Assembly: GCF_026151205.1 (NCBI RefSeq)
Contig: NC_087078.1
Location: forward strand, 15,889,118 to 15,953,117
Source: Bolinopsis microptera
Taxonomy: Eukaryota; Ctenophora; Tentaculata; Lobata; Bolinopsidae
Length of the DNA stretch: 64,000 bases
Direction of reading: 5' to 3'
Shown: one piece after another, positions 4,556-54,883 of the stretch
Layout of the letters: each line of letters begins with the position of its first letter
How positions within the stretch are numbered: the stretch's first letter is position 1
Notes under the pieces: model-generated
Databases searched by the model: none
Seen by the model: the letters and a program-made list of their open reading frames with translations, nothing else
What the model was told of the DNA's origin: nothing
Translations under genes and position numbers: made by a program

Positions 4556-4843
4556 TTTAGAGCTGGCAAGACAAAACTTGCTGAACTTGACACTCTGTAC
4601 AAAAAGGTAGCCAAAATAGCTCTCAACGTTCCACAAACAGAGAGCAGCCTTAATGTTTATAGAGACATGAAATGGTTACCACTCCATCTTAGACGACAAC
4701 TCCATCTGTCAAATTATATGTTTAGAATCATCCATGACAATTGTCCTACAAACTTTATGAACAAATTTAGTTACATATCAGGAGGTAGTAGGAGCGGCGA
4801 AAGCTGCAACCTATATGTTAATAGATCAACATCACATTCTAAA
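4556..4843 (+). mobile_element. LINE B, left part: RT C-terminal coding fragment
   Basis: Encodes about 95 residues matching the C-terminal region of LINE C's ORF2 in this window (KTKL..LD.LYKKVAKIAL, MKWLPLHLRRQLHLS, SYISGGS). It is 5'-truncated at the satellite junction, as expected of an incomplete target-primed insertion. Coding breaks off after SHSK at about 4843 and resumes with TFQYLGAKCW at 19371, so LINE A inserted here. The ATG at 4553 joins this fragment in frame to LINE A ORF1, giving a chimeric open frame of 507 codons to 6076. Confidence 0.85.
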
Positions 4844-17184: not shown

Positions 17185-17189
17185 TGCGT

Positions 17190-17203
17190 CCTTCTCTGCT
17201 ACC
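17190..17203 (-). promoter_or_regulatory. copia primer-binding site, initiator Met tRNA type
   Basis: Directly inside the 5' LTR (two bases away) the minus strand reads TGGTAGCAGAGAAG, close to the TGGTATCAGAG primer-binding sequence that many copia elements use to prime minus-strand DNA with initiator methionine tRNA. Confidence 0.7.
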
Positions 17204-17206
17204 ACT

Positions 17207-24435: not shown

Positions 24436-27400
24436 CTAATCTGGCCAGACTGTATCGGCAGCCCAGAGGTACTTGATCAGTTTGGCCTTAAAAGTAGAAA
24501 TCCGCTCTGACTGCCGGATACATACTGGTAGACTATTCCAATTCAGCATAGATCTATGAAAAAAGCTATTTCGGAAGGCATCCGAGCAGGGCACAGTGGT
24601 ACTCATGTAAGTTGAAGTATCCGACATATCAATTATTTGAGCATTGTGCCTAGTGTATCGGGTGCCCTCTGGACGGCATAGGACTATATATGTAGGGAGC
24701 GAAACTGGAATTATGCTATTCACTATTTTATAGAAGGTCATAAGATCGTTATAAATAAACTTCTGTTTAACAGGGAGAATATTTAGTTTCTTTTGCTCTG
24801 TAGCAAGTTTATCGTCATTATAACTGGAGTAAGGTTCACCATTGATCCATTTAATAGCCCTCTTTTGGATAGCAACAAACTGTTGAAGATGAGTTGCAGA
24901 TTGAGGGGACCATATGACAGAACAATGTTCAAATATAGACCTAATTAACGCTAAATAGAACGATCTTTTCTGCCTTTTATCAGTAGTGAAATGACATGTT
25001 CTCTTAAGTAGTCCAAGTCTAGATGTAGCTTTGGAAACAAGCGCTTTACATTGTGCACCCCAATTAAACCTGGAGTTTATTGCGACTCCTAAATCTGACT
25101 GAGAGGGCACAAAGTCAATATCACTTCCAGAAAGTTTATAAAAGAAGGTATTGAATGGCAAGTTATCCAGCACGTTTCTTTGCAGGGACACAGAGAGGGC
25201 TTTGCACTTTTGTGGGTGGAACTTCATTCGATTTCTCACTGACCAATCATATAATCTATTGATGTCATTTTGGATTATGTGATGGTCAGGGTAACCAAGA
25301 ATCTCCCTCCAAATTTTAGTGTCATCTGCATAAAGGGCGATATTGGTGCCTTCAGAGACACAGGAGAACATGTCATTTATAAATATTACAAACAATAAAG
25401 GGCCGAGTATAGAACCTTGAGGGACACCAGACCGAACTGGTAGAGAAGAAGACGTTTGGCCTCCTATCACTACTTGTTGTTGTCGCCCCTCAAGATAGGA
25501 CTTAATAAACTTAAGCATTAGTCCATCGACATTAAAAATATTCTTTAATTTACTTAAAATGAGGTCATGCGAAACGCTATCAAAGGCTTTCGCAAAATCA
25601 AAATATATTATATCAGTCCTGGACCTGTTATTCAATGCAAGTGCAAGATTGTCTGTGAAAGGTATCATTTGGGTTGTGCATGAGCGTTCATTAACAAAAC
25701 CGTGTTGTCGGTCATCCAACAGATCAGAACACGCAGCGTATAATGCAGTCTTTATGCACCTTTCAAAGACTTTCATTACAAGAGATGTTAACGAGATAGG
25801 CCTGTAGTTCTCAACCGAAGACTTATCGCCCTTTTTGTGCACTGGTACTACAAGTGCCAGCTTCCAATCAGGGGGTATGCATCCGCTCGAGAAAGACAGG
25901 TTAAATAAAACACTAAGTGGGTATGCAAGGCTTTGGGCACAGTTTTTGAGGACTCTCCCATGAATCCCATCAGGGCCAGGGGCCTTGTTAGGATTTAACT
26001 TTTTAAGAATCAACAGAACATCTTCTCTACTAAACACAAGACTTGAAAAACAGTCATCACGAAAATCTATGTCAATGCCATAATCGCTCTCTTGAGAAAA
26101 CTGCTCATAAAAATATTCGTTAAAAAGGGCAGCTTGATCAGATGGATTGTTTCGAAAGCGATTATGATATTTGACAGTTTCAGGGATCCTGGTTGACTTT
26201 GATTTAGATTTAACGTAGGTCCAGAATTTCTTGGAGATAAGAGCATCATCGGAGTCATCCTCAACACTGAGTCTCATTCTTTCGTCCATCAAATTTTTAA
26301 ATTTTGTGCGAAATGCACGAAACTTTTGTTTATGAGACTCAGAGTTGCTCCCCTTATGCCTTATTCTCCATTTCTCCTTATTTCGTAGGAGGCGATCACA
26401 TTCGGAGTCATACCATGGGGGCTGGAACTGAGACTTAATGGTCTTTTTAGGGATCCATCGGTCACAGGCTGCATCAAGAACTCCTCTGAATCGACTCCAG
26501 GCAAGATAAGGATCATTACACTCAAATATATTATCCCAATCGATGCTAAATAACTCAGAATTCAGGCCCCTAAAATTACCTTTACTATAATTAAAGATCT
26601 TTCTTTTAGGCTGCTTAATATACTTGGTCTTAATATCAATGTCAAATGTGATACAAAAGTGGTCGGACATACACATTTCGTTTTGATCTAAAACTTTAAC
26701 ATTCTTAATAAGGTTCTGAATGTTAGTGAACACAAGATCTAAGGTGTTGCCTGACTTGTGAGTAGGGAAACTAATAAGTTGTGTATGTCCGAGGTCATCA
26801 GTGAGAAAATTTACAAAGCTAGAGTGTAGCTGACAAGATGACTGACCATCTGGCCAAGAAATCGAAGCCAAATTAAAGTCCCCTACCAGAATGTGTCTTT
26901 GCAACTTTCTGGCAGATGCTAAAGTAACAAAATGTTTTTTGAAAGATTCAAAATTATCTAAGCCAAGCGTTCCTACTCTATAGAATGTTGATATACAAAA
27001 GTTTCTTCCACACTGAGTCTTAATTATGACGGATAATAATTCAGCTTGAACACTAACCTTAGAAAACTTTAGACTAGAGATATCAATGTCTGTTCTATGG
27101 GCAATCAGAACACCACCACCGTTTTTTCTGAATTTCTTGGGCTGGGTTGCATCCACTGGATGCGATCTTAAGGATCGGTCAAGCCTAAATACTTTGTATT
27201 TGTCAGGGAGCACCTCATTACTGAGAATGGAATTTTTCAGCCATGTCTCGTTTAGAATAATGATGTGAGGCTTATGTTTGTAGATATAACCATGAAATTC
27301 ATGTATCTTGGTCATATTTAGTGGTGGTGTTCCTGATGCTAGATCGCGAGTATTTAGGAAACCATGGACATTATTGTAAACAACAGATAAATTTGGTCCA

Positions 27401-27942
27401 GGGTTCAGTAAGGAACAATTACAAATTACTATCAGGGAAATATTAAGGAGAGATAGAAAAACCAGACCACACCTAGACATGACCCCAAGCCAGCTGCTGG
27501 TAATACCGAAAAGTAACTTAACAGTCTGTTTCGGTGACATGGTAGGTGACAGTTCAGTTTTTGTGGTAGATAGCAATTTTACAGAAATTGCAGTTAAGGC
27601 TGCCCCAATGCCCCTCTCACCCCTATACACAAGTTTGAAGTGTCTGAGAAAAATGGTACAAAATATTACCATAAAGTAAAGATTTATGGATGACCTCAAA
27701 CATGGTACAGAGTGTATTTTAGGTTGTAGGGGAGCACCAGGGAGTATATTAGCATCGATAGTCAAAGAAAATATATACAAAATAACATACAAATAAAATA
27801 TACCCAATAGAGCACATAACATATGACGAGACAGAAGACAGGACAACAAATTTTCCCCGTTACCTCTATTACTTTTACTGATGATAACATACCTAGAAAA
27901 CATACCAGTTGCAACACGGTGTTGTTGAGCCGATATTCCCAT
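24436..27942 (-). CDS. LINE D ORF2: endonuclease and reverse transcriptase, uninterrupted
   Basis: 1,168 codons from ATG at 27942. The first 178 residues hold three hydrophobic segments (about 41-60, 87-101 and 159-175), then LLNPGPN with NPGP at 180-183, a degenerate 2A-like sequence. The endonuclease follows: VVYNNVHGF, LNETWL, NGGGVLIAH, HILVGDFN, GNTLDLVFTN, MSDHFCITF. RT motifs: NKAPGPDGI, VENYRPISLTSLVMKVFE, YFDFAKAFDSVSH, PQGSILGPLLFV and LYADDTKIW. The tail (FEHCSVIWSP, IQKRAIKWI, RNSFFHRSMLNWNSLP) matches the CR1/Jockey group. The protein should nick chromosomal DNA and copy the element RNA in place (target-primed reverse transcription). No stop or frameshift, so the enzyme may be functional even though the element is 5'-truncated. 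Confidence 0.93.
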   Translation of the reverse strand: MGISAQQHRVATGMFSRYVIISKSNRGNGENLLSCLLSRHMLCALLGIFYLYVILYIFSLTIDANILPGAPLQPKIHSVPCLRSSINLYFMVIFCTIFLRHFKLVYRGERGIGAALTAISVKLLSTTKTELSPTMSPKQTVKLLFGITSSWLGVMSRCGLVFLSLLNISLIVICNCSLLNPGPNLSVVYNNVHGFLNTRDLASGTPPLNMTKIHEFHGYIYKHKPHIIILNETWLKNSILSNEVLPDKYKVFRLDRSLRSHPVDATQPKKFRKNGGGVLIAHRTDIDISSLKFSKVSVQAELLSVIIKTQCGRNFCISTFYRVGTLGLDNFESFKKHFVTLASARKLQRHILVGDFNLASISWPDGQSSCQLHSSFVNFLTDDLGHTQLISFPTHKSGNTLDLVFTNIQNLIKNVKVLDQNEMCMSDHFCITFDIDIKTKYIKQPKRKIFNYSKGNFRGLNSELFSIDWDNIFECNDPYLAWSRFRGVLDAACDRWIPKKTIKSQFQPPWYDSECDRLLRNKEKWRIRHKGSNSESHKQKFRAFRTKFKNLMDERMRLSVEDDSDDALISKKFWTYVKSKSKSTRIPETVKYHNRFRNNPSDQAALFNEYFYEQFSQESDYGIDIDFRDDCFSSLVFSREDVLLILKKLNPNKAPGPDGIHGRVLKNCAQSLAYPLSVLFNLSFSSGCIPPDWKLALVVPVHKKGDKSSVENYRPISLTSLVMKVFERCIKTALYAACSDLLDDRQHGFVNERSCTTQMIPFTDNLALALNNRSRTDIIYFDFAKAFDSVSHDLILSKLKNIFNVDGLMLKFIKSYLEGRQQQVVIGGQTSSSLPVRSGVPQGSILGPLLFVIFINDMFSCVSEGTNIALYADDTKIWREILGYPDHHIIQNDINRLYDWSVRNRMKFHPQKCKALSVSLQRNVLDNLPFNTFFYKLSGSDIDFVPSQSDLGVAINSRFNWGAQCKALVSKATSRLGLLKRTCHFTTDKRQKRSFYLALIRSIFEHCSVIWSPQSATHLQQFVAIQKRAIKWINGEPYSSYNDDKLATEQKKLNILPVKQKFIYNDLMTFYKIVNSIIPVSLPTYIVLCRPEGTRYTRHNAQIIDMSDTSTYMSTTVPCSDAFRNSFFHRSMLNWNSLPVCIRQSERISTFKAKLIKYLWAADTVWPD

Positions 27943-28136
27943 GGAACTTTTAAGTATATTATTAACAGAATTGTGTCTCGCCGTTGTGTTTTGTTAGGTA
28001 TTGTGCTATAATATGAAGTAACATACATTATGCTATCACTTCGTTTGAATACATATAAATAACATCCAAATGATCAGATCCAATAGGATACTGATGCAGA
28101 CAATGAAAAATTGAAATATTGAATTGGATTACCACA

Positions 28137-28738
28137 TCAGTATCCCATTGGATTAAACCACTTTGAGTGTATGATTCTGAGATAGAACTTTGCCAACACT
28201 GGCATCCCAGCCTTGGGGCTGGGATGAATATCATAAAAGCCCCTATTGTCACACTTAGGAAATAATCTCTCGTTTCTGTTTCCATAGCGGTCTAAGAAAG
28301 CCCAAAAAACATCAAGGTAAAACAGTTTATGCCTAGAGCAGCGATCAAAGATCAAATTATTCATAGCACAAACATTACCAGGGATTTTATCTTGTCCGTT
28401 GGGGTGGACTGGTGGAATAGCTTGTACAAAAACACGTGCATTTGGATAAAGTTTTTTTGCTGTCTTCATAAGGTCACTCACAGGGGTCTTGAGATGATTG
28501 ACACCCTGGGTACAGTACCGGATGTCGTTGGCACCGAAGCTTAAGAACAGTTTCTTTACCTGCACAAGAGGGTTCTTTGTATGAAAGGCCTCAATAGATT
28601 TCTGTATAGCTGAGATCTTAAGCCCACCCTTAGCTATGTTGGTGACAGTTTCTTTACCTCTACTGAGGCGATCAGCGTCCAATCGAGCAGCAAAGGAGTC
28701 ACTAGCACACCCCTCATTATATCCATGCTCAGGCCAGT
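28137..28738 (-). CDS. LINE D ORF1: SGNH-hydrolase-like (esterase) domain, 5'-truncated
   Basis: The frame is open from about 28738 (PEHGYNEGCASDSFAARL) to the stop at 28137, without an upstream ATG, so the element is 5'-truncated within ORF1. SGNH/GDSL features: block I nucleophile Ser in GCASDSFAARL, block III Asn in FLSFGANDIRY, and block V Asp-x-His in YDIHPSPKAG. Esterase domains in ORF1 are known from CR1 elements and are thought to help lipid or membrane association of the ribonucleoprotein. A spacer of about 195 bp separates it from ORF2. Confidence 0.85.
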
Positions 28739-29338: not shown

Positions 29339-30353
29339 CGGGTATATGGCCCCCAGAATATAGGTCGTTTTTTGAGCACTTAGAAACAGGTGTTAAAACT
29401 ACTTCTAAGCATGTTTAGGGCTGTAAATATGTACATAATAACCCTTTAAATGTTTCTTGGGTAGTTGAAAATAATTATTAGGTTTTTAAGTGTACTTTTT
29501 TTTCACCTGTAAAAATACCATTTTTTAACAGGGCCCCCAGAATATAGGTCCAAACATCTGTTCCTAAGTTGTTCTAAAATTGTCACAGACAGTTATATAA
29601 TGCAGTCAGAATATGTTGCTGAGACTGTATTGATGATGCCAATGGCTCCAGATACTAAATTGAAATGGTTTAGAGTATACTTAATAGCAAAAAATCAAAA
29701 ACTACGGCCCCCAGAATATAGGTATGCAAAAATCGTCCTCAAATACTCCACCTTCATACATTTTGATGATGCCATCTCTTCAGCATATGTTCTTTAACTG
29801 TTTCTCATCACTACCCCACATTCCTTAATGCTCAGGGTGACAGAGAAAATGCAGAATCTTGGTCGCTATTTTTTTTTAAAACCTATATTCTGGGGGCCAT
29901 ATTTAGAATTAGAATTAGAATTAGAATCAAATTTACACAGCAATACAATAAGAATAAAAAATAATTTAAGAAGCTTCAATCTGCTGTGCAGGACATTCAA
30001 GTCAGTCGAAAACTGTTAGCAGAACACCCTTCTAGGGACATAAGGATATAGTATGTAAAACATAATGAGTAATAAATTAATGAGTGATAAAATAAGATAT
30101 GATTTAACAGTGAACTGTGGGCATGAAGGTAACAATTAAGATTACATAGATGCCCACTTTGGGATTACGTTAGTAATGTTATTTACAGTTATATACAGAG
30201 AAGTATAGAACAATAATAGATTGGCAATGATAACAAATGGGAACGAGTAAAGGAGATGTTTAAAGTTCTATACTTCTGGAAATAGGTCATATATAACGCA
30301 GGGGGCCTTTCCACCCGACAAAAACTCCAGCACCATAAAATTTATTTCAGTTG

Positions 30354-33229
30354 TCACATAGCTAGAGTGTAGAAATAGTCGAAACTATTGTTTATTTCAT
30401 AGGATGAGACTCCTTGAATTACATCTGACATAAATTTAGATTTCATACATTGTGAGAATTTTACACTACATTCTATAGTCCTTATGTTCTCTGGAATTGT
30501 ATTCCAACATTTTGCACCTAAATATGTAAAGGTTTTGTGTGTTCTGGATTTGTGAATATAAAGGTTGCACCTCTCAGCATCACATGATCCTCCGGATACA
30601 TAAGACAATTTATCTGTGAATGATGATGGTGCAGCCTCATTAAGAATTTTATACATATACGTTGATAGATGGAGTTGTCTTCTTAAGTGTAAGGGTAACC
30701 ACTTCATATTTCGATATACATTTACTGATGGTTCCTGCCAATGAACATCCAGAGCAATTTTTGCTACTTTCTTGTATAATATATCAAGAGAATTAAGTTT
30801 GGTTTTGGCAGCCCTACACCATATTATATCCAGGTAGTCGAATTGGGGGAGCATAAGAGCATTTACAAACATTTTTCTATATTTCAGTGGAAGAAGATTT
30901 TTCGACCTGTATAATGCCCCTATTCTTTTAGCAATTTTTGATTTCACATAATCAATATGGTCTTGAAAGTTCAATAAATTGTCTATCATGAGACCTAAAT
31001 ATTTTTGAGATTTAGTTTCTTCTATAAATAGGCATTCTTTTTCCAAATCCAGAGGGATTGACAACGTGTCCAGATTAGGTGATCTATCAAATACAATGAA
31101 TGAAGATTTTGCAGCATTTAGCCTCAGCTTGTTGATTCTAAGCCATTCATACACAATTTTCATATCCTTAATTACATTCTCATATATGCCTCGGGAAATG
31201 TTATCAAAATATAGTGCACTGTCATCTGCAAATAAGTAAACAGTAGATTGTGTGCAATTTCTACTGAGATCATTTATGAATAAACTAAATAGAATTGGTC
31301 CTAATATGCTACCCTGTGGCACACCTGTTTTAACAGGGAGTGATGTGCTTACATTACCACGTATTTTGGTGTGCTGCTTTCTGTCCCCAAGGTAGCTTTT
31401 GAACCACTTTATGACAAAGCCATCAACTCCATAATACTTAATTTTTTTAATAAAATATTATGGCTTACTGTGTCAAAGGCCTTTTTAATATCTAAGAATA
31501 CAATTGCAGGTTTCTTCTGTGATTCCTTAGACGTAAATATTTTATCAAATAGATTAAGCATTAGAAAAGTGGTGGAATGATCTTTTCTAAATCCATACTG
31601 ATGGTTGGTAAGCAGTTTATTGGTTTCAACATACTCTGTAAGCTGTTGGTTAACAAAATATTCTATGCATTTTCCAAGTAGGGGGAGTATGGATATTGGC
31701 CGGTAGTTATTTGGATCATTAGGGTCACCAGTTTTAAGAATTGGGGTGACTGATGCAATTTTACATGCCAACGGCATTGTTCCACTTTTCATACTAAGGT
31801 TTATAATATGAGCTACTGGATCGATGATTTGGGGAATAATATACTTATATACTTTAATGGGCATGATATCGTTAATCGATTTATCTGATGGTATACTGAG
31901 TATATATTCTTTTACTTGTTCAACAGTCACCTCTTCGAATACAGAGAGTTTACACTCTGTTGGAGGCGGCATATATTCTAGGAAGTCGTCTGAATCCTTT
32001 TCCTTAATCGATTCTTGTATTATTGTACCAACTGTGGCAAAATGCAGGTTAACTCCGTTAACATTTAAGTTGCTTGGGGAAGAGCTACTTATTTTTCCAG
32101 GTAAGTTTGAAGCATGTTTGATAGTTTTCCAAATACCTTTCAAATCGTTTTTTGCACTTTTCACAGTAAGGTCCTGAACAATATTTGTACGTCTGTTTTC
32201 TTTGGATAATTTTGTCACATAGTTTCTTTGGGGACGATAGTTATCCCACGAAGTAGAGCATTTCTTATGTAGTTCACTTTTTCTGCATTTACATATTCCA
32301 TTAATACAATTACACTTGAATTTGTTTAATTGTCCTAAACACTTTCTATACTTTCTGAAAAGCATCTTCTTCTTCCGTATTTCTGCCAACAGTTCTTTAG
32401 AGGGATTACAAAGAAAGTTACTATTACATCTTATCTGTTTAGGTGGACAGTAATTGTCATACGATTCCTGGATGTGATGATTAAGTCCATCTAGGGCATG
32501 GTCTACATTAGTACAGCTTAGAATATTACTGTAGTTACTGCAGGATCCCAGAAAATAGCTTAAGGCTTTTAGATTGTTTAAGGAGTGGTCTCTGATAAGG
32601 ACCTTCTGGAATTTACTAGCTTTATTTACTTTAAAGTCGAGAACACATTTGAGAGCTTGGTGATCTCCTATTCTATCATCAAGTACTTTACACTCTATGA
32701 AATTAGAGTAACAGTTAGTCATTACAACATCTATTGTGCTCTGCGTTATTCTACCATCTAAGTTTGCAACTCTAGTAATTCCTGTAACAGTCTGTATCAT
32801 TCCAAAGAGCTTCATTGTTATATCTAACTTTTTATAATCTAGATCAGATAAAGAGTTTTGGTTAACATTAACATCGCCAATCCATATTACTTTCTTACCT
32901 TGAAGTTTCATCATACATTCAGTCATATAATCAAGGAAAGTATCTAGATGACAAAAGTTTTGTGATCTGTAGAAGCAGCAAATGTAAAGATTGGCGTCCT
33001 TGAGTTGTATCCATAAAGCTTCGATTTTAGAAATATCAGAGTAGGTTATATCTAAATTGAGTAATTTGTGGTTAACATTTTGGTTGATCAATATACCACA
33101 CCCTCCTCTTCCTCTATCGTTAGGTCTATCACACCTTATAAAATCAAAGTTTAAGGGTAAGTTAAGTGTACTAGTGTCTATATTAGATTTAAGGTTTGTC
33201 TCATTAATTCCAATTATGTCAAGCTTTTC
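30354..33229 (-). pseudogene. LINE C ORF2, main part: endonuclease and RT, one frameshift
   Basis: Runs from the RLE2 target duplication (33229) in the frame KLDIIGINETNLKS, GRGGCGILINQ, FYRSQNF, WIGDVNVNQ, STIDVVMTN and IGDHQALK (endonuclease), then NNYRPISILPLLGKCIEYF, FLDIKKAFDTVSHN, PQGSILGPILFSLF and LFADDSALYF (RT), ending with TYLGAKCWNTIPENIR and a stop at 30354. The only frame break found lies in a run of seven T (31442-31448, A on the coding strand) where one base more or less joins the two open frames. A homopolymer error is as likely as a real mutation. Upstream the frame continues across RLE2 at 37642-37800. Confidence 0.88.
33191..33229. repeat. RLE2 target-site duplication, left copy (39 bp)
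   Basis: Begins AAGGTTTGTCTCATTAATTC; identical to 37642-37680. It lies in the LINE C endonuclease coding region. Confidence 0.92.
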
Positions 33230-33230
33230 C

Positions 33231-34550
33231 CTGCTTGATGTTTATCAGGAGTTCGTTGTGTGGTCAAGGTTCAAGCTTAAGTCGTCTAAGTCTAGGGCAC
33301 TAGTCTACCAGAAGGGAGTGACAGTGGAGTGGGTTGTAGAGAGTTCAGAAGGTAGTCAGGCGAGGTTGCAGCTTAGCGGGGAGGTGATCCCGAATGTATC
33401 TGAGAAACCAATCAAGTTTCTAGGGAGGTGGATTCGGGCAGAAGGAAAGGACAAAGCTATAATCGAGAAAACACACGAGGATCTTGTTACATACCTCAGT
33501 AGACTCGATCTTAGCTCCCTCACCGGCCTGCAGAAATGTTGGGGGTATCAGTATATGGTCCTTCCAAAGATGAAGTGGCCACTTGCCATTTATGATATCC
33601 CGATCAGCACTGTTTCTCGCTGGGAGCAAACAACTAACAGTCATCTCAGAAAATGGCTAGGAGTGGGACACACGCTTAGTAGCTCTTGCCTGTTTAGTCA
33701 TTCATCCAGTGTTGCTCTCCCCATCGACAGCCTAACCGACACTTGGAAAGTAGAAAAGTGCCGTCTCTTGCAGTCATATCAAACATCTCAGGATGCTTTG
33801 ATCAGAGCGGTGCAACCCCAGGTGCGGTCTGGGAGAGTTTGGAAGGCAGATGCTCAGCTTCACGAAGCTGAAAGAGACTTGGTGTGTGAGTCAGTGCGAG
33901 GTATGGTGCAACCTCTTAGTAGAGCGGGAATTGGTTTCGGTGATTGGAAGAAGCCCTGGGAGAAGATGTCAGAAAAGGAGCAGCAGAGGGAGGTGTTAGA
34001 TAGGGTTAAGGAGAACATCAGGAAGGAAAGAGAGGTGCAGTTGGGTACGTTGGAGATGCAGTCCAGGTGGGGTAATTGGAGAGAGCTGGTGACAAGGACT
34101 GACATGAGCTGGCTCACGCTCTTCAAGTATGGGGACTCATTAATCGGTTTTCTGCTTAGTGCTGTGTATGGCACGCTTGTTACACCAGCTTTAGCATCCA
34201 AGTGGAGCGAGGATGAGGATGGGATGTGCAAGCTGTGTGGTGACAAGTTGGGAACTGTGCCGCATATTCTGGCTGGTTGTCCTGTGGCACTAAGTCAAGG
34301 GAGATACCGATGGCGCCACGATAAGGTGCTTAAACAAATAGCAGACCAAGTGAAATTCCATTGTGAGCGGAGAGTCAACAAGAGGAAGAGCTCTTGTGTC
34401 ACTCGGAAAGCCATTGAGTTTGTTCCAGCAGGAGGGAGGTTTAAGGAGGTGAAGAGGTCGAAAGTCAGTGAGTTTGGGATTCTGAGTGGGGCCACTGATT
34501 GGATAGTATTAGCAGACCTGGATGAGCAGCTGAAATTCCCGTCGGATATA
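33231..34550 (+). pseudogene. RLE2 coding region, first part: RT thumb and zinc finger
   Basis: 440 codons, open from the insertion junction (LLDVYQEFVVWSRFK). Recognisable: KFLGRWI, LQKCWGYQYMVLPKMKW and HLRKWLGVG of the post-RT region, then the finger CKLCGDKLGTVPHILAGC (CX2CX8HX4C) and YRWRHDKVLKQIA. It stops at LKFPSDI, where a 14-bp target duplication marks the nested insertion; coding resumes at 36733. Confidence 0.85.
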
Positions 34551-36718
34551 TGTATGTATGTATGTATGTATTTTGACACGGGGCAGCGCTAGACCCCATG
34601 TAGTGCCCTCAACCTACTTTTAGATTTGAAGGTCATAAAGGCGACAACAATGCCAAGAGGACAGCGCAAGCCGGTGGGCTGTACACTGGGCACGCGCGCG
34701 TAATAATAGAGCTCAAACAGGTAATAGACCCCGCGAGCATATAGAATCAGGATTTTACAGGATGTGGGCAGCCGGCCCTGTGAAGGTGATGGATGCGTGC
34801 AAATCTGAGGGCTTGAAGCGAGTGTATTGTGGAGCTAGCGTACTCTGATAAGTGAAGTAGCCCGAACCAGGTAGCTCACCTGCTCCGCATCGCGGGGGGC
34901 CGCTCCAGTTTACAGATGTACATGCGGAGATATGTCGACGCTCGTGAGTGAATGGGGAATAGCTGATTTGTGCGAAGGTAATGTGTGGGTTATGATGGTG
35001 CTGTTACTTTATAAGTTCTAAGCTTGTAGAATGTGTTGCAAAAACCATCCTAATTGAGGTTTATTGGTTGGCGTATGTAGTGAACTAGTGGGGTTTGACG
35101 ATGAAAGAGCGCTAAGATAATTTTGGGAATGTAGTATGGGCAGTGACAGATTCAAGGTTGATGGAGATAATTAAAACAACGAATATAACTGCAATTGTAA
35201 AAAGTAATAGCAAATATTTGTAAGTGAATCTCGATTGTTTGTGAATCCTCTTTATCGACACTATGATGCTGAGGCGAAGTTCGGGACTGATCTGGTATCA
35301 TCTTCCTTGAGTATACTAATCAGATCAACCTGGAGTGATGGAACGTTTCAATTATGTGGATTTGTCGTAATCTCGTGGAATAGTCGTAGGCTTGTGCGCG
35401 CGCAGGCTCGCGCGCGCACTAAATTTTCTGTTTAAAAAATGACGACTATTAGGTTGCTACGTCCTTGAGTTGTATGGCGTTCGCGCGTTACGTTTAATGC
35501 GGGAAATTTGAAGGACGGATTTAACTGGTTTGAGTAACTGGATTTCATTGAAGTTGTGTTTGGTGGAGCAAGGCGGTAGGTTCGTTTTTTAGGGGTGATT
35601 AGTGGGAGTGTTCTAACCTGGTGGTGGTGGAGGAACTGCTAATACCGGATGAAGGGGTACCCTGGAGGCAGTGATTGGATCTCTACTGGTTTGGAGAGTG
35701 GGAGTCCTTTATTTAGGTTGTCTGATGAATATCTGTGTCAAGTCGTCAATCTGGAATAACTCGAGTTTTAGTAATTTATAAAGTGGGCTGTAACATTGCG
35801 TTCCAGCCCTGAGAGGGAAAATAAACTAGTAAGAAGATGTAATTATTGGAAAATTGATGCAGATTACATTTATTGACTGATCAGAACAAGGAATAATGTT
35901 ATGTGGAGTCCAACTTGTAGTTATTCATCTCATGTGATGGTTTAGCGAAGATTTCTGGATCGGAGTAGTATGATGCAGATATCAGATTTCGTAGTGCTGA
36001 TCCATTGTGTTGATGTACTGCTGCGTAAACTGGTTTCCACATATGTATGTCACAAGGGTAGCCGGGGTACTCGAATCCTAATTAGATCTCTAGCTTTGTG
36101 TTCGCCGTAGAGTGGAGAGTGGATATCCATAGTGCTGTGTACCTGTGTAGGGTTGAAATTCCAAGGTTGCTGAAATGATGATGGTGTTAGAGAAAGACGC
36201 AAGGTGTAACATGTGTTACACCGTGGTAAGAAAGGCATTATGGTAGCAGAGAATGCATTATGACAGGAGAATGAGCGAAAGTAATGCAAATGAAAAAAAA
36301 AGGACCGAATTGCTGAGGTGATTGAGTGAGTGAGATGCTGCATTGCTACTGGCTGACTCGCCAGCAACAATGCAAGTCCAAGAAGAAAGAAGGAGAGACA
36401 CTGTCCGTTATCTGGGTGAGCCACCACCGACAGTGCTCCCACTTATGTGGGGCTGAGGGTGTTGGCTCCAAGAACCAGCCGTGAGCGAACAGCGCCTGTC
36501 CCCCTCTATGGTTAACTTGAGAGTAACAGGACTATGCCATTCTCCAGGCCAATCCGTTCAGTAACCAGCTGACCAAGCACCACCTCTGATGGAAGATGTG
36601 GTTAGGATTGGACTTCGCTAGGATTTGTCAGTTTTTCTGTAGACACTAATGCTCCCTCGAGGAAAGACATGAGCCCCGGCGAAACTGACCAAAAACGTGG
36701 CAGGGATTCTCACCCTCC
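34551..36718 (-). mobile_element. 2,168-bp non-coding insertion in RLE2, TACA-tailed
   Basis: Flanked by TCCCGTCGGATATA at 34537-34550 and 36719-36732. Its left end is a TGTA repeat, i.e. a TACA-repeat 3' tail on the minus strand, so it was probably copied in by a LINE machinery in minus orientation. On the minus strand the sequence before the tail reads GTCTAGCGCTGCCCCGTGTC. No protein domain can be recognised; it is richer in G+C than its surroundings. Probably a non-autonomous retroelement. Confidence 0.8.
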
Positions 36719-36732
36719 TCCCGTCGGATATA

Positions 36733-37095
36733 GCAACGACCAGATTAAGACCAGATTTGGTTCTTTTCTCGAAAGCTTCCAAGAGAGTAATCTGGTGGGA
36801 GCTTACAGTACCGTCGGAAGAGAGAATAGCTGCATCCCATGAGCTGAAGCTTGATCGGTATAACAGTCTACAAGCGGAAATACAAGCTAATGGGTGGTCA
36901 TGTTTCAGCTTTGCTGTTGAGGTTGGTGCTAGAGGTGTGGTCGCAGCAAGTTTGGAGTGTGCATCAAGGAAGATTGGTCTGACTGGGAGAGCCCTCAAGA
37001 AGTTGGTCAGAGATTGTGGGAAGGATGCAGCCCATTGTTCAAGATGGATTTATCTGCTGTCTAGGAAAAGAGAGTGGGAGATGAGAGCTGTTTGA
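36733..37095 (+). pseudogene. RLE2 coding region, last part: restriction-like endonuclease
   Basis: 120 codons after the nested insertion: ATTRLRPDLVLFSKASKR then VIWWELTVPSEE (PD-(D/E)XK catalytic pair), KLDRYNSL, and FAVEVGARG, which ends at REWEMRAV and TGA. Continuity with LKFPSDI at 34550 is exact once the insertion and one copy of its target duplication are removed. Confidence 0.88.
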
Positions 37096-37641
37096 GCTTT
37101 ATGACTTCACCTAACAGCCAGAGGTGCCATAAGCTAACTCGTCGTAAATCGCGAGCTCTAGCAGGTATCCTCGGGTGATTGTCAGATCAGATGGTGGTCC
37201 AAGAGAGACTGCTGGGGCACCTGACAGAAAACCGTATCGCAATGAAAGCCCCGAAACGGTGTCAGGTTTGTGACTGAAGATTCTGATCAAGCTCAGGGTT
37301 GAGTCTACACAGTGTCGCCACTTGCCGATGCCAGTTGATGCGAGAAGACACTGATGTAAGTGGGAAGTTATGTCTAAGAAACAGCGTGTGGTTCGGGTGC
37401 CGGTTGAACGCATGTAAAAGGGAGGGTATATCCGTATTTCGCTGCTAGTGATGCAGTCCTTAGCCCGGTAGCTAAGGCTTCCCCGTTTCTCGCTCATTTG
37501 TGCTCCGATGGGCTTGTGACCTCTGCGGGGGTCAAGTGCAGGATGAGGGACATGGCTGACCAGGAGAAGGTTGTTTTTGGGAGATAGAGTAAGGTTGGTT
37601 TGGTGTTGTGCCTTCGCAGTTTAACTGTATCTTTACTCTAT
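37096..37641 (+). other. RLE2 3' untranslated region
   Basis: Non-coding by position between the RLE2 stop and the right target duplication. Contains GACCTCTGCGGGGGTCAAG, a hairpin-prone stretch, near 37520. Structured 3' UTRs are bound by the RT in R2-type elements; a match in structure was not tested. Confidence 0.6.
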
Positions 37642-37800
37642 AAGGTTTGTCTCATTAATTCCAATTATGTCAAGCTTTTCGCGAAATATTAGCTCCTGTA
37701 GTTCGAGAGTTTTTGCCAGATTAGTCAGGCCACCCTGTATATTACATAGACCAAGAGAGAGATTATCGTTTATTGAGGTACGAATAAGGTTAAACCAAAG
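37642..37800 (-). CDS. LINE C ORF2, endonuclease N-terminal segment
   Basis: Minus-strand codons LCNIQGGLTNLAKTLELQELIF then REKLDIIGINETNL, the usual start of an APE-type endonuclease. 37642-37680 is the right copy of the 39-bp RLE2 target duplication. No ATG precedes CNIQGG in this frame; a TAG stands at about 37802, so the ORF2 start is either non-ATG or lost by mutation in the roughly 290-bp ORF1-ORF2 spacer. Confidence 0.8.
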
Positions 37801-38091
37801 CTAATGGGGAACAAATCCACATGCAGTCTCCTCAAGTAGACTAAGTTTCAAATCATGTCATACATATGATTTAAATTGGATTTCGGATCAGCAATCATAC
37901 TGCAGTTTAAATCATAAAATTTAACAGCATAAAATAGTAACTCACTTCTGTTTGTGATAAATATAGCTTGAGAGATATAAAAACGTTAAATTATTAGAAA
38001 TTTGTGCTGATCTAACATTTTAAACCAGATAAAACAGTAATCCTGTTATTATTCATGTTGATACCCTTGGATTATAGAATTTTAATGAAGT

Positions 38092-40005
38092 TTAACACAA
38101 GTGAGTTACATATTTGAGATGCTTACCAAGCCTGGCAATTCCTAACTTATTGAGGTGCACATTGTCATGGCCCCTGCCAAAATACTTGTCCTTTCTATTA
38201 TAATTTAAAGTAAAGAGATTATTTTCATGTTCTGTGTTAATGTATATTAGCCCATGCTTATAACACATATTCTCTAAGTATCGATTAAGTCCCTGCACTA
38301 TAATGTTCTTACTAGTGACAGCTCTAGGCAGAATATTTAAGATATATATTTTTGCACTATTAAATTCTGCCCACAATTTTTGAACAAATTCTTCCATGTC
38401 ATTGGTGGCACTGTTGAAGTTCATTGTGTTGAGGTCAATTGGATCAACACAGTTAGTACCAGTTAGTAAAACAACCTTTTTAACCTTTTCTTTGTTGAGA
38501 ACTTTGAACTGACTGTCGCTAAAGAGTCTTTGGGACATTTGGATTGAGTTGGCCCCTGGGTAGAAAAATACTTTGGCCTTCTGAGATGAAGAGCTCAACA
38601 GTTTTTCATTCAGATGCCTAAACATGCTGCTGCTGATATAAACAGTGCTCACATCGTTGGGTGTCTCCTTTTCGAACAGTTGTTGTCTGTTAACATGCCG
38701 CCCTGATTGATGGGGTGGTGGAGATGTATAGGGTGGGGTTAGAGGTCGGTGCTGATAAGCACCATTCGTTTTCCTTGATGGATGAACTATAAACTCGTCT
38801 TCTTGATAAGGTACATAGCCGCTGGAGTTTGAGATGTTTTCATATGGGTCATGGTAATTGTCATTGCACATGTTGGTTGGTGTACTTGTTAATCTTTGGA
38901 CAACAGCTACAGGTTTGATCAGTCTGAATGTGATACTGATCCTTTTGTTTGTACAAGATGGTTGAGTACAGATTTCATGTCTGTAATGAAGCTGAGATTT
39001 TTTAGACATGATACAAACATCCCCATGCTTTAGATCTAGGGCAGACACCACTTTTCCTGTTTGAATTTCTGTGAACTGCATCGTCCTAGAGGCACCCAGA
39101 GAAACTGTAACAATGTAAGAGTTTTCATCGATGCATTCTTCATTATCACTATGGATAGGCATGCATTCTGTCCCAGTACTGTAGTAGTTTACGAGAGCAC
39201 TGTTGTAAACATAATCCGGGAGTAACACATCAAGATATGAACAGATAGCAGCCAGATAGGACTGATGTGGTATCTCCTTCGCCTCGTGACTTCCCCCATT
39301 ATACACATATGGGAAGTCCCCAAAGTAAGCTGTTTTCCTATTTTGAAACTGGTGGCTAAAATCCAATTCTCTCAGGAAGATGTCTAAGGAGAATTTTTGA
39401 AACGGTGCCTGATCAATGAGTTCAACAGGTGGTATGATAATGTCAGGGCTTTCGTCATTTACACTTAAGGCCACACTAGATATGGGTGTTACATCTATTT
39501 CAGCATAATACTTGCCACTCCATGGATTGACAGATCCTGCACTCCCACTGATTTGATTTTCTGTGTTGTTGGAAATAATAGAATCTGGTGCTTCTATGAT
39601 GCCATCACTATTGATTAGCATGAAAGATTCAGGCACCTCGCATTCACTGTCATATTCAATCTGATCGTTTTCAAATTCTGTCTGAACTGCAACATCTGAA
39701 CACCTATCCAGGACAGCCCGATAATCTATTGACTGATTGGTACTTTGATGTAACAACGTACCATTAATCTCTGCTATAGTCTGAGAAGTTTGAACAATGT
39801 CTTCTAGGATGATCACTTTCCGCTCGAGAAACTTGACATGAGATTTGAGTGCAGTACAGTTTTTGCATTTTTGATCACATTCCGACAATAGTTTTCCAAA
39901 AAATATTTCCATTGAATCGTCCATGATATTGAGTTGATGATTTGAATTAAGTTGTTGATTTGAATTGAAGCAAATTGAAGAGTTCACATGTGAGATTTGT
40001 TCCAT
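38092..40005 (-). CDS. LINE C ORF1: AlkB-like dioxygenase plus SGNH hydrolase
   Basis: 637 codons from ATG at 40005, uninterrupted. Residues 30-80 hold CDQKCKNC followed by a heptad region (coiled coil likely). Residues about 225-365 form an AlkB-like Fe(II)/2-oxoglutarate dioxygenase domain: NYYSTGTECMPIHSD with H285 and D287, YRHEI with H343, and NKRISITFR with R355 and R361 (R-x5-R). These are the iron triad and the 2-oxoglutarate/substrate arginines of AlkB, which removes methyl lesions from RNA or DNA. Residues about 453-637 form an SGNH hydrolase: Ser in YISSSMF (458-460), LLTGTN (Asn 518) and HDNVHLN (Asp 614, His 617). The two domains are separated by a Pro-rich linker (420-433). Position and strand directly upstream of the endonuclease/RT frame make it the LINE's ORF1, probably a ribonucleoprotein component. 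Confidence 0.9.
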   Translation of the reverse strand: MEQISHVNSSICFNSNQQLNSNHQLNIMDDSMEIFFGKLLSECDQKCKNCTALKSHVKFLERKVIILEDIVQTSQTIAEINGTLLHQSTNQSIDYRAVLDRCSDVAVQTEFENDQIEYDSECEVPESFMLINSDGIIEAPDSIISNNTENQISGSAGSVNPWSGKYYAEIDVTPISSVALSVNDESPDIIIPPVELIDQAPFQKFSLDIFLRELDFSHQFQNRKTAYFGDFPYVYNGGSHEAKEIPHQSYLAAICSYLDVLLPDYVYNSALVNYYSTGTECMPIHSDNEECIDENSYIVTVSLGASRTMQFTEIQTGKVVSALDLKHGDVCIMSKKSQLHYRHEICTQPSCTNKRISITFRLIKPVAVVQRLTSTPTNMCNDNYHDPYENISNSSGYVPYQEDEFIVHPSRKTNGAYQHRPLTPPYTSPPPHQSGRHVNRQQLFEKETPNDVSTVYISSSMFRHLNEKLLSSSSQKAKVFFYPGANSIQMSQRLFSDSQFKVLNKEKVKKVVLLTGTNCVDPIDLNTMNFNSATNDMEEFVQKLWAEFNSAKIYILNILPRAVTSKNIIVQGLNRYLENMCYKHGLIYINTEHENNLFTLNYNRKDKYFGRGHDNVHLNKLGIARLGKHLKYVTHLC

Positions 40006-40116
40006 TCCATTAACGTTACATTCGTATTACATTCGTATTACTTTGGTCATACCTCAATAAATGTATTTAATTGTAGTTGTGAAAATAGTTTAAAACTATA
40101 TATATATATATACCCG

Positions 40117-52017: not shown

Positions 52018-54883
52018 TTAATCCTCGTAGGTCATGCTGTCGATTGAACCAGTCAGATGGGTTCTGGCATAATAAAAGTTCTCGTATGCCTGGTTGACTT
52101 TCAGTTTCAGGATATCTTTAGTACTGTATGAAACTCCACACGCCTTCACTCCTTTCAGTACTTGGTTACCTCCCAAAATTTCCACCTTCACTGTTGTGGC
52201 ACAGTCCATTTCTAAAGGCACCGTCCTAAAGGGATCTTCTCCCGAGGCTTCAGTCTCCTGACCACTTCCAATTTTGTAAGTGACTTTGACACTTTCTGGT
52301 TTCTCACCGTCCGCCCAGAAGAACTCAATGTCATCCAGAGCACAGATCTGTCTGAGATTGATCTCAAACCAGCCATTCTCACCAGCGTCCCACAAGGTTG
52401 AATTTGAAGCATCCACCAGGCTATCTGGATCTGAACTACCAACACTTGCTGAAACTGGCTTACCCTTTGACACGTCATCAAGAATATCGTAGGAAATTCC
52501 GATGAGATTGATGGTTCGGATGCCGAAGTAGTTCCTCCCGCTCCACGGATCTTTCTTTCCTTTTCTCAAGTCCATCTTTATTTTGGTAGTCTTCATGTCC
52601 CATCCATTGAGATAACTCCAATGGTTGAACCAACCCTCTACTCGCTCATCTTCGTGTGTCTTCACCAGAACGTAGTCACCATCTTTACCCATAGCATAGA
52701 TGTCGTACTCTGCTGGCTTTGACCAACCCCACCATTGGAATTTTATTTCCTGTATTGTGGAAGGCTTCTCAAGATCAATTTCAAAATCAGCAGTTTCCTG
52801 TTTGCAATAGGCAGTGTTGCCATGTTTATCTGTCATCGCACGACTAGTGGTTCCAAAGCATTCTGAAGTGACAATCTTTTCACTAGCAATATCAGACGAC
52901 TTGTTTTCTTTTTCCCGCTGCGCTAAAACAACTGGTAGCAGTGCATTTTGTACTGTTTCTTTATTTAGATTTGGTTCCTTTATTGCCTTTTCAAGGTCAA
53001 CTCACACCGCAAAGTTATAAGGGCATTCGGTTGTGGCATCCTCTAATATTTCAAAACGATCTTCAGGATTCACCAGCTTACTTGCGATTCTCAATTTTTC
53101 AGAGAGCCTATAACCAGCCAGGTTCTTTTGAGCTTCATTCATAACACGGAAGTAGTATGCTTGTCTCATCCAAGTATACTGGATTCCCCTATGTGAATTT
53201 GACGATCCCCACCCAGAGACATCGTTACCCAGCACCCAGTTTCCACCTCTGTACCATATGTAAGCGGCGTGACCAGGCTGTCCCACTTGGACGGCAGCTA
53301 CTCCATAAGCATGACACATTCCTGCAGCGAACTTTGATATAGCACCACAGACACCCCCAATCTCATGCATTGATTTGAGGGATAGTGGGAGGTAGTAGTA
53401 ATATGGTATGTTCCGTCATCGTTTTTTAGTTTGTATGACATCATTCTGTGGGTAGCGCCCCCTATTTTAGATGGGTTGTTTCCCGAGCCCAAATGTGCTC
53501 CTCTTCCGTTTGCCAGGATCCTACTACATACCTGAGATGCCAGGCTGTTCCCTCAAAGAATGGTGAGAAGAGCACATCTTCTTCACTCCATCTCATGTAG
53601 GTCTGGTACCTTGCCTTCCAGTCTATCGTGTTTCTTCCGACAGCCATGGAGGCTACTGGTGTTGAATGTGTGATTGCCGTAGCAACAGCAAGTCGAAGTC
53701 TCAGTGGTTCTTCTTTGATAGCAGGATCTAGCCGGATCAGGCTTCCTAGTATTTTCAGAGCCTCTCGATATTTATTACTTTGAATATCCCCCGACGTCAT
53801 AAACATTTCTAATGCTTCCCTGTTTGTTAGAATCCAATTCAGCGTCTCATCACTAAAGTCAAGAAACCCTGCTTTGTCTTGTATCTTTTTCATGAGCCAC
53901 CATTGAAGGACATTCAGCGATCCCTCAGGTGAATTAGCATACACTTTGACCTCCTGAAGGTTTTTCCCAGCGACCTTGGTGACAATTCCTTCTTTCAATG
54001 CGTCAACTTTTAATTTAAACTCTTTCATTCCCGTATATTGGAAAGCTTTATCTGTTCCTGGTAGAATAAGTGTGTTCCACTTGAAGCCGTTATTACCGCC
54101 CCAGAATATAATGTCTTTCGCTGTTGAAATATCTCTTCGATATGGAAAGGTCGCTGAGAGAGCTTTCCCATTGAAATATATTTTGTAAAAGTTGTCCATT
54201 AAGACTATTTTCATGACGAAATCTTCGTAGGATTTTAAGCTTGGCAGTTCACACCTTACCTCTGACCCCCAGCCACCAAGTTTAGAGTTCATCACTGTTT
54301 TCCACCAGTTTGGTCTAGGGTTGAGGTGGAACAGAATGTTGCCACTGTCATCCAAAATGTTGGCACTAAACCAGGATGTATCTGCAGAGTAAGTTCCGTG
54401 GACCTCTATGAAATCACCTGGTTCCAAGACCTTGCCTAAACTGTACTTGATGTTGATAGCGGGATTGTCTACTGTACCTTCTTCTGTACCTTCTTCTGTA
54501 CCTTCTTCTGTACCTTCTTCTGTACCTTCTTCTTGTTCATCTGTTCGTTCTGCTAACTGTACCAGATCTGTTTCATCCTGGTACAGAAAGGTCTCTGATT
54601 CTTCTTCCGAATCTCCAATGCTCATCCAATCATCATCGTACGTCTCTTCAGTGTCTTCTGATGCTCTTCTAAGTCTCTCCAAGTAGTTCTCAGAGTCTTC
54701 CTTGATGGGATCTGTTGGTAATACATTCTCGTGCTTAAAGTGATGTTCCTGATGGTTGTACTCCTCCATTAATTCCTCTTCCCAAGCGTCGTCGTAATCA
54801 TCCCGGTAGAGAACGTCGTCGTCATAAACTGCTTCAACACAACAGCCTGCTAACAGTGCAGTAAGCAGGGCTAGCCGGATCAT
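52018..54883 (-). pseudogene. secreted galectin / transglutaminase-like / discoidin-like protein, disrupted frame
   Basis: Antisense within striatin intron 1. Start ATG 54883: signal peptide MIRLALLTALLAGCCVEA, then a strongly acidic region and five EEGT repeats (about 116-138). A galectin-type sugar-binding domain follows (about 145-275) with GTYSADTSWFSANIL, FHLNPR and VMNSKLGGWGSEV. A helical region leads to TAWHLRYVVGSWQTEEEHIW. The transglutaminase-like domain (53370-53005) has MHEIGGVCGAISKF, GVAAVQVGQPGHAAYIWY and GNWVLGNDVSGW, with Cys, His and Asp in the expected order. Two discoidin (F5/8C)-like domains follow (52836-52018). The frame breaks near 53480, near 53410 and at an in-frame TGA (53002-53004). 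The first break could instead be an 86-bp intron (perfect CAG/GTATGT donor), the TGA a 90-bp intron; the middle break has no such excuse. Decayed gene or sequence errors. Confidence 0.75.

Follow-up and report, generated by a model that had tools for sequence, protein, structure and literature searches.

Zebrafish ZfL2-1, a LINE of the CR1/L2 type, encodes a type IV ORF1 protein in which a coiled coil is combined with a C-terminal SGNH esterase, while the APE endonuclease and reverse transcriptase (RT) are encoded in ORF2 (PMC3905857, PMC4120745). AlkB domains have been reported in other parasitic replicons, including a Ty3/Gypsy retrotransposon of the orchid Phalaenopsis, whose AlkB is described as demethylating and binding RNA in vitro, and the plant RNA viruses of the Alphaflexiviridae, Betaflexiviridae and Closteroviridae that the orchid paper cites (PMC9289625). 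Here we analyze an APE-type LINE family of the ctenophore Bolinopsis microptera whose ORF1 likewise contains a coiled coil and an SGNH esterase, its likeness to type IV resting on this composition, and which differs from ZfL2-1 in having an AlkB domain between the two. The orchid element, according to its published description, is a plant LTR element with an ALKBH5-like AlkB, C-terminal and in a separate ORF, whereas the domain described here is ALKBH2/3-like and fused to an SGNH hydrolase in an animal LINE. The plant viruses depend on an RNA polymerase whereas the LINE is reverse-transcribing, and human ALKBH3 and ALKBH2 are, unlike the LINE fusion, stand-alone cellular enzymes. That ORF1 evolves in modules and may contain an esterase is already known, as is the presence of AlkB in RNA viruses and in an LTR retrotransposon; AlkB in a LINE ORF1, and AlkB joined with SGNH, were not found in open-licence PubMed Central. 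Neither "AlkB" nor "dioxygenase" occurs in the accessible text of the ORF1 survey (PMC4120745), and "AlkB" is likewise absent from that of the ORF1 structure paper (PMC3905857).

The window, by which we mean the whole analyzed stretch of 64,000 nucleotides, contains one copy of this LINE on its minus strand. Other copies were sought in the genome of 264.65 Mb in 232 contigs, 13 of which (C1-C13) measure 15-26 Mb. The anatomy of the window copy, from its 5' to its 3' end, is as follows:

40053-40097 (-): spliced leader of type 3, 45 nt, with which the element begins; same sequence as the exon in the tandem SL RNA genes on C5
40006-40052 (-): short 5' UTR, the gap between the leader and the start of ORF1
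38092-40005 (-): ORF1, an intact open frame of 637 aa
39748-39864 (-): long coiled-coil-like helix, residues 48-86, predicted by AlphaFold2
38902-39435 (-): AlkB domain of ALKBH2/3 type, residues ~191-368, with H285, D287, H343, R355 and R361, by profile and fold
38095-38649 (-): SGNH hydrolase domain, residues ~453-637, with S460, G484, N518, D614 and H617, by profile, residue conservation, AlphaFold2 and structure match
37801-38091 (-): ORF1-ORF2 spacer of ~290 nt, holding the junction between subfamilies A and B just before ORF2
37641-37800 (-): 5' part of ORF2 with the start of the APE endonuclease, by translated frame and ORF2 comparison
33230-37640 (no strand assigned): later insertion of 4,411 bp that splits ORF2 and is not part of the LINE, recognized by its flanking 40-bp duplication
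31412-33229 (-): ORF2 segment with APE and the beginning of the reverse transcriptase, by domains and ORF2 comparison
30357-31457 (-): ORF2 past a frameshift, remaining reverse transcriptase and C-terminus, by domains and ORF2 comparison
29903-30356 (-): 3' UTR, read from the sequence, ending in (TTCTAA)n tandem repeats at ~29903

The 637-codon ORF1 frame is uninterrupted, as the initial annotation had stated, and no poly(A) tail was seen at the 3' end of this copy. The duplication that flanks the insertion is exact (33190-33229 equals 37641-37680), and the inserted DNA is GC-richer, its longest frame, of 511 aa (33057-34592, +), matching zf-RVT weakly (E = 0.041). The ORF2 remnants are 92-98% identical to an open subfamily B ORF2. 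Because ORF2 is broken by the insertion and the frameshift while ORF1 is intact, we rejected the window copy as an autonomous element. ORF1 had also been placed directly upstream of an APE/RT frame, which is true of the family, both frames being open, adjoining and on the same strand in eight of the 15 copies read for this purpose (L032, L034, L035, L038, L040, L041, L043 and L045), and untrue of the damaged copy in the window. An intact ORF2 matches Exo_endo_phos (6.5e-6) and RVT_1 (1e-38).

Four other features lie in the window. At 24436-28682 (-) there is another LINE with an open APE-RT frame of 1168 aa and, upstream of it, an SGNH-only ORF1 remnant without an AlkB match. A fragment at 4559-4837 (+), within a frame that matches the PHD finger weakly, is 66% identical to the C-terminal part of the ORF2 of the AlkB-bearing LINE family. 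An open frame of 1461 aa at 12820-17205 (-) carries an integrase core (rve) and RVT_2 and is Copia-type by its domains, and the open frame at 53462-54883 (-), with a galactoside-binding lectin domain (E = 4.1e-14), is possibly a host gene.

Analysis of ORF1 using profile-based and structure-based approaches yielded concordant results. PF13532, the AlkB family, matched at 82.6 bits against a cut-off of 31.2, the iron site HxD...H and the motif R-x5-R were located at H285, D287, H343, R355 and R361, and the AlphaFold2 model, whose alignment was built from 75 of 121 proteins, adopts a predicted AlkB fold in structure comparison. The proposal of an AlkB fold, which the lack of any match would have overturned, is therefore strongly supported by Pfam, by sequence relatives and by structure. 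Both sequence and structure place ALKBH3 and ALKBH2 as the closest solved relatives, with only 21-27% identity to the human proteins over the domain, and several viral models match the fold as well. The C-terminal SGNH triad reported earlier is likewise present (S460, D614 and H617), and the ORF1 profile matches the ZfL2-1 esterase structure 4c1b (E = 0.0022). ORF1 is hence a predicted coiled coil followed by an ALKBH2/3-type iron/2-oxoglutarate dioxygenase and an SGNH esterase. We regard the anatomy of the element and its family given here as practically certain, and the predicted AlkB as very probably an active dioxygenase on nucleic acid.

Copies of the element fall into four subfamilies. 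The ORF1 protein search recovered eight full-length copies of subfamily A, that of the window included, with 99-100% identity to ORF1, and 14 open copies of subfamily B with 59-60%. When a Mnemiopsis homologue was taken as query, 20 stop-free frames of 630-632 aa among 28 matches (subfamily C) and 19 of 551-552 aa among 23 matches (subfamily D) were obtained, the matches covering both AlkB and SGNH. There are hence at least about 61 open copies among the best candidates, which were those scored. The 15 copies in which ORF1 and ORF2 were read, five each from A, B and C, were taken with 10 kb each. Copies are dispersed and share common 3' ends, (TTCTAA)n in A and B and (TTTA)n in C; a target-site duplication was not obvious by eye in the flanks of the 15 copies (14 in the case of the 3' flanks). 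The element is an APE-type LINE and its family is recently active. That the AlkB might be a chance capture or a gene fragment in one copy, foreign to the life cycle of the LINE, was rejected given the four subfamilies with their open copies, the relatives in Mnemiopsis and the invariance of the catalytic residues; the domain belongs to the LINE family and its catalytic residues are intact across copies.

We next describe the constraints on the two enzymatic domains. A protein search with ORF1 residues 195-637 (E ≤ 0.001) gave 247 matches, and the residue counts rest on the 120 of them that were listed, together with P0001. Candidates have words in common with the query and lie in open frames, a procedure that favours well-kept proteins. 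The set H285-x-D287, H343 and R355-x5-R361, already pointed out in the initial annotation, proved invariant, each residue being kept in all 121 proteins. In the SGNH domain S459, S460, G484 and N518 are kept in 121 of 121, D614 in 118 and H617 in 117. Among the 28 copies of subfamilies A, B and C the AlkB catalytic residues are intact in every one, and N518 is replaced by D in a single copy. Comparison of replacement and synonymous changes across copies by the NG86 method, an analysis that had been suggested earlier, gave pN/pS values within A (nine copies) of 0.52 for the N-terminal region, 0.03 for AlkB, 0.14 for the linker and 0.15 for SGNH. The corresponding values within B (14 copies) were 0.36, 0.37, 1.04 and 0.19, and within C (five copies) 0.54 for the N-terminal region, 0 for AlkB (zero replacements) and 0.44 for SGNH, with a linker devoid of changes. 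The partial or broken copies L010-L014, L029 and L030 were excluded from these sets, in which subfamily C is represented by a minority of its copies and D by none. For AlkB, dN/dS between A and B was 0.11, a rough value with dS at ~2, and many other dS values between subfamilies were saturated. Judged from these ratios, constraint on AlkB is strong in A and weaker in B.

Taking the pN/pS ratios together with the invariant residues, both domains seem to have been maintained as predicted enzymes. This bears on a reading in which the AlkB fold simply holds nucleic acid within the particle, with catalysis secondary or absent. ORF1 proteins must bind RNA, and Pfam reports neither an RRM nor a zinc knuckle in this ORF1, and a catalytically dead orchid AlkB is reported to keep its RNA binding (PMC9289625); the five catalytic residues, however, are not required for binding alone and are nonetheless invariant, so that we rank this explanation fourth and consider it improbable.

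Six of the 120 listed relatives bear a species name, and all six are from Mnemiopsis leidyi. Four Mnemiopsis proteins were scanned, AlkB and GDSL being present in P0012, P0079 and P0086, whereas P0100 gave no GDSL match. The proposal to look for the same ORF1 beside an RT in related genomes found its answer in P0199, a single Mnemiopsis gene model that contains AlkB, a weak GDSL match and RVT_1. In the ORF2 protein search (3593 matches, 120 listed, hardly any of them named; one, P0155, has a possible bacterial name) four pairs of listed ORF1 and ORF2 matches report an equal longest contig, of 5,883, 7,050, 513,782 and 2,407,760. At the lengths of the first two, ORF1 and ORF2 would have to be neighbours, if each pair does lie on one contig.

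Subfamilies A and B are 98% identical from just before ORF2 through the 3' end, and only 69-70% identical over the alignable first 1.2 kb, comprising the 5' UTR and the first part of ORF1, beyond which identity is lower still. The change is abrupt, and its position (~3450 in L032 versus ~3461 in L038) falls in the ORF1-ORF2 spacer. One of the two, A or B, is by this comparison a chimera that acquired a whole 5' module, and AlkB and SGNH are present in both of the alternative modules. Exchange of entire ORF1s has been proposed for CR1/L2 lineages (PMC4120745).

The 5' ends of the elements are spliced leaders. In all 16 copies examined, namely the 15 and that of the window, the first 32-46 nt belong to one of three leaders and are followed by GTATGA, type 1 being used in ten copies and types 2 and 3 in three copies each, mixed over A, B and C. 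Type 1 is the exon of a tandem array on C3 with a period of 591 bp (C3:13511056-13533428) and type 3 that of an array on C5 with a period of 428 bp (C5:1039673-1050577). In these arrays an ordinary splice donor, GTAAGATTAAG, comes after the exon, whereas the element copies continue with GTATGA. Genome-wide there are 948 exact type-1 leaders (control 0) and 66 occurrences of a 26-nt leader piece joined to GTATGA (control 0), and five singleton leaders elsewhere are each followed by unrelated sequence. The identity with the exons and the GT donor of the arrays, replaced by other sequence in the copies, indicate that trans-splicing by the host precedes the copying back of the LINE RNA, and that this trans-spliced RNA probably is the template. 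Near-identical LINE copies bear different leaders, which suggests that the leader is renewed rather than inherited, and the AG ending an inserted leader may act as the next splice acceptor.

The leader is close to that published for another ctenophore, Hormiphora californensis, which has a karyotype of 13 (PMC8527503). Leader-bearing Iso-Seq reads of transposons amount to 30.9% and 29.7% in two Hydra strains (PMC12220107), and retrogenes tagged with a spliced leader are reported in dinoflagellates (PMC12014239). As far as these accounts go, trans-spliced RNA is there too a template for retroposition; unlike them, the leader is here the genomic 5' end of autonomous LINE copies and varies between near-identical ones, an arrangement of which no report was found in open-licence PubMed Central.

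Head-to-head leader pairs a few bases apart were also seen, five of them on C1 (7307505-/7307553+, which is L052; 15606568-/15606623+; 16284611-/16284658+; 18035177-/18035227+; 23931773-/23931817+) and others at C7:15867979-/15868019+, C12:7747693-/7747733+ and C2:13821719-/13821777+. At L052 the same sequence extends beyond both leaders, as if two inverted insertions had met 5' end to 5' end. At L046 (C2:1844600-1845400) leaders form a tandem array of ~181 bp with TCAGGG after the exon; since the GT donor is missing these are not SL RNA genes, and perhaps represent an amplified retrocopy.

The composition of ORF1 (a self-association helix, a demethylase fold and a lipid esterase) and the selection acting on it point to enzymes that work inside a particle of ORF1 protein and RNA. 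ALKBH2, ALKBH3 and AlkB remove m1A and m3C, methylations of the pairing face that stop reverse transcriptases. AlkB is reported to take both off DNA and RNA and has been used to aid RNA sequencing (PMC7968990). We propose that the ORF1 protein would coat the trans-spliced RNA of the element, that its esterase half would have a lipid or membrane task such as has been proposed for other esterase ORF1s, and that its AlkB half would strip base methylations from the nucleic acid of the particle. The likeliest targets would be Watson-Crick methylations of the m1A/m3C type on the RNA template and the single-stranded cDNA, which if uncleared would stall both the reverse transcriptase and translation, and the LINE would thereby supply its own template-cleaning enzyme. 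Action of the AlkB on the element's own RNA or cDNA is the explanation that we rank first, with a probability of about 0.45; the weaker AlkB constraint in subfamily B (pN/pS 0.37) counts against it. The functions guessed in the initial annotation, which included demethylation of the element's own RNA, repair of template or target DNA and the countering of host marking, are consistent with the predicted enzyme.

AlkB is also present in another class of mobile element of this genome. A Pfam AlkB search gave 587 candidates, of which 150 were scored with at least 151 matches, and 113 AlkB frames of at least 500 aa were counted among 149 of the 151. Six matches sit in open frames of 2,225-3,388 aa:

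C12:8331889-8338713, AlkB upstream of Rep
C10:16875843-16882625, AlkB upstream of Rep
C3:14435575-14442090, AlkB upstream of Rep
C9:15868177-15874569, AlkB upstream of Rep
C12:2469580-2475660, AlkB upstream of Rep
C9:11087055-11093251, AlkB upstream of Rep

Matches to PF14214, the Helitron replication initiator (41 in all), agreed with those of AlkB in frame length, contig and strand at each of the six places, and lie downstream of them. The PIF1 helicase (40 matches) had a matching frame at five of them and lay in a separate 420-aa frame at the sixth. The frames were matched by contig, strand and open-frame length, and part of one was read as DNA (L055, L056), where the 3-kb piece L055 gave an AlkB match of E = 6.6e-21 and showed HKD, H and RFSLTFR by eye. 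Two further places, C12:814122-820972 and C1:17986537-17992339, may be broken copies. Helitrons with a predicted AlkB-Rep-helicase protein thus exist in the Bolinopsis genome; the term "Helitron" is absent from the accessible text of the orchid paper (PMC9289625).

The AlkB domains of the LINE (P0001) and the Helitron are 36% identical over 143 residues. A tree of 40 out of 131 domain rows (33 of 122 LINE domains, five stand-alone, one host gene candidate and one Helitron; two fragments were dropped) united the LINE domains in one group (88/87); the Helitron domain fell immediately outside it (80/75), at the end of a very long branch (2.93). The two elements may have received their AlkBs through one capture or through two, both of which fit the tree. 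A search with the AlkB domain alone gave 26 candidates and eight matches; L059, judged from its translation, we take to be a host ALKBH2-type gene. By eye, the regions downstream of one 593-aa and one 676-aa AlkB frame are SGNH-like, and beside an AlkB frame of 676 aa a PHD-finger-like cysteine pattern was noticed in another frame (L058, C10:415000-415600, -). PHD fingers occur in CR1/L2 ORF1s.

Because Helitrons carry AlkB without having reverse transcription, cleaning of a template for the RT cannot be the only use of this domain in mobile elements, and its presence in both classes argues that either mRNA is protected from host marking or DNA is protected. In the former case AlkB would erase the m6A (or m1A) with which the host marks transposon RNA for decay or non-translation. 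Such counter-defence would be of use to LINEs, Helitrons and LTR elements, as mRNA is needed by all of them and is the only stage that the two AlkB-bearing classes found here have in common, and the authors of the orchid study proposed a role of this kind for a Gypsy AlkB that binds RNA and demethylates m6A in vitro (PMC9289625). The LINE sequence is nevertheless nearest to ALKBH3 and ALKBH2, ALKBH5 and FTO being absent from its 42 profile matches and ALKBH5 reaching only rank 50 in the Foldseek list. Moreover, m6A is reported to aid L1 in mouse and human cells, where L1 is suppressed by ALKBH5, an eraser of the AlkB family (PMC7873242), and erasing a mark need therefore not benefit a LINE. 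We place this explanation second and judge it rather unlikely.

In the latter case the marks cleared by AlkB would be 6mA, 1mA or 3mC, carried by cDNA, by target DNA or by single-stranded transposition intermediates, or the enzyme would open methylated chromatin. The best structural match of the LINE domain is indeed ALKBH2, which repairs DNA and whose structure was solved with DNA, and Helitrons, which likewise carry AlkB, are DNA transposons. In embryos of the cnidarian Hydractinia 6mA builds up and is cleared by Alkbh1, although it is described there as random and not as an epigenetic mark (PMC10390872), and ctenophore data on 6mA were not found in open-licence PubMed Central. This role is ranked third, as unlikely. 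Action on the element's own RNA or cDNA remains our preferred explanation for the LINE.

Placing the LINEs and Helitrons side by side, two kinds of element with no common replication chemistry both carry a predicted ALKBH2/3-like dioxygenase as part of a core protein, and the LINE AlkB appears to have persisted while many subfamilies diversified and ORF1s were exchanged. The presence of AlkB in both within one genome suggests a general problem. Methylation of nucleic acids, or methyl damage, in ctenophores may be a general obstacle to mobile DNA, perhaps even an active defence, with AlkB as the counter-weapon, a reading that we offer tentatively and with more doubt than confidence. LINE ORF1 proteins remain poorly understood, and the presence in one of them of an enzyme with known chemistry provides a directly testable handle. 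Modified RNA might also be read more easily with a demethylase acting alongside a reverse transcriptase. Should AlkB clear methyl groups that block the RT, this would demonstrate that natural retrotransposition is limited by modification of the template, whereas the erasure of host marks would be evidence for a methylation-based defence against transposons in an early-branching animal lineage.
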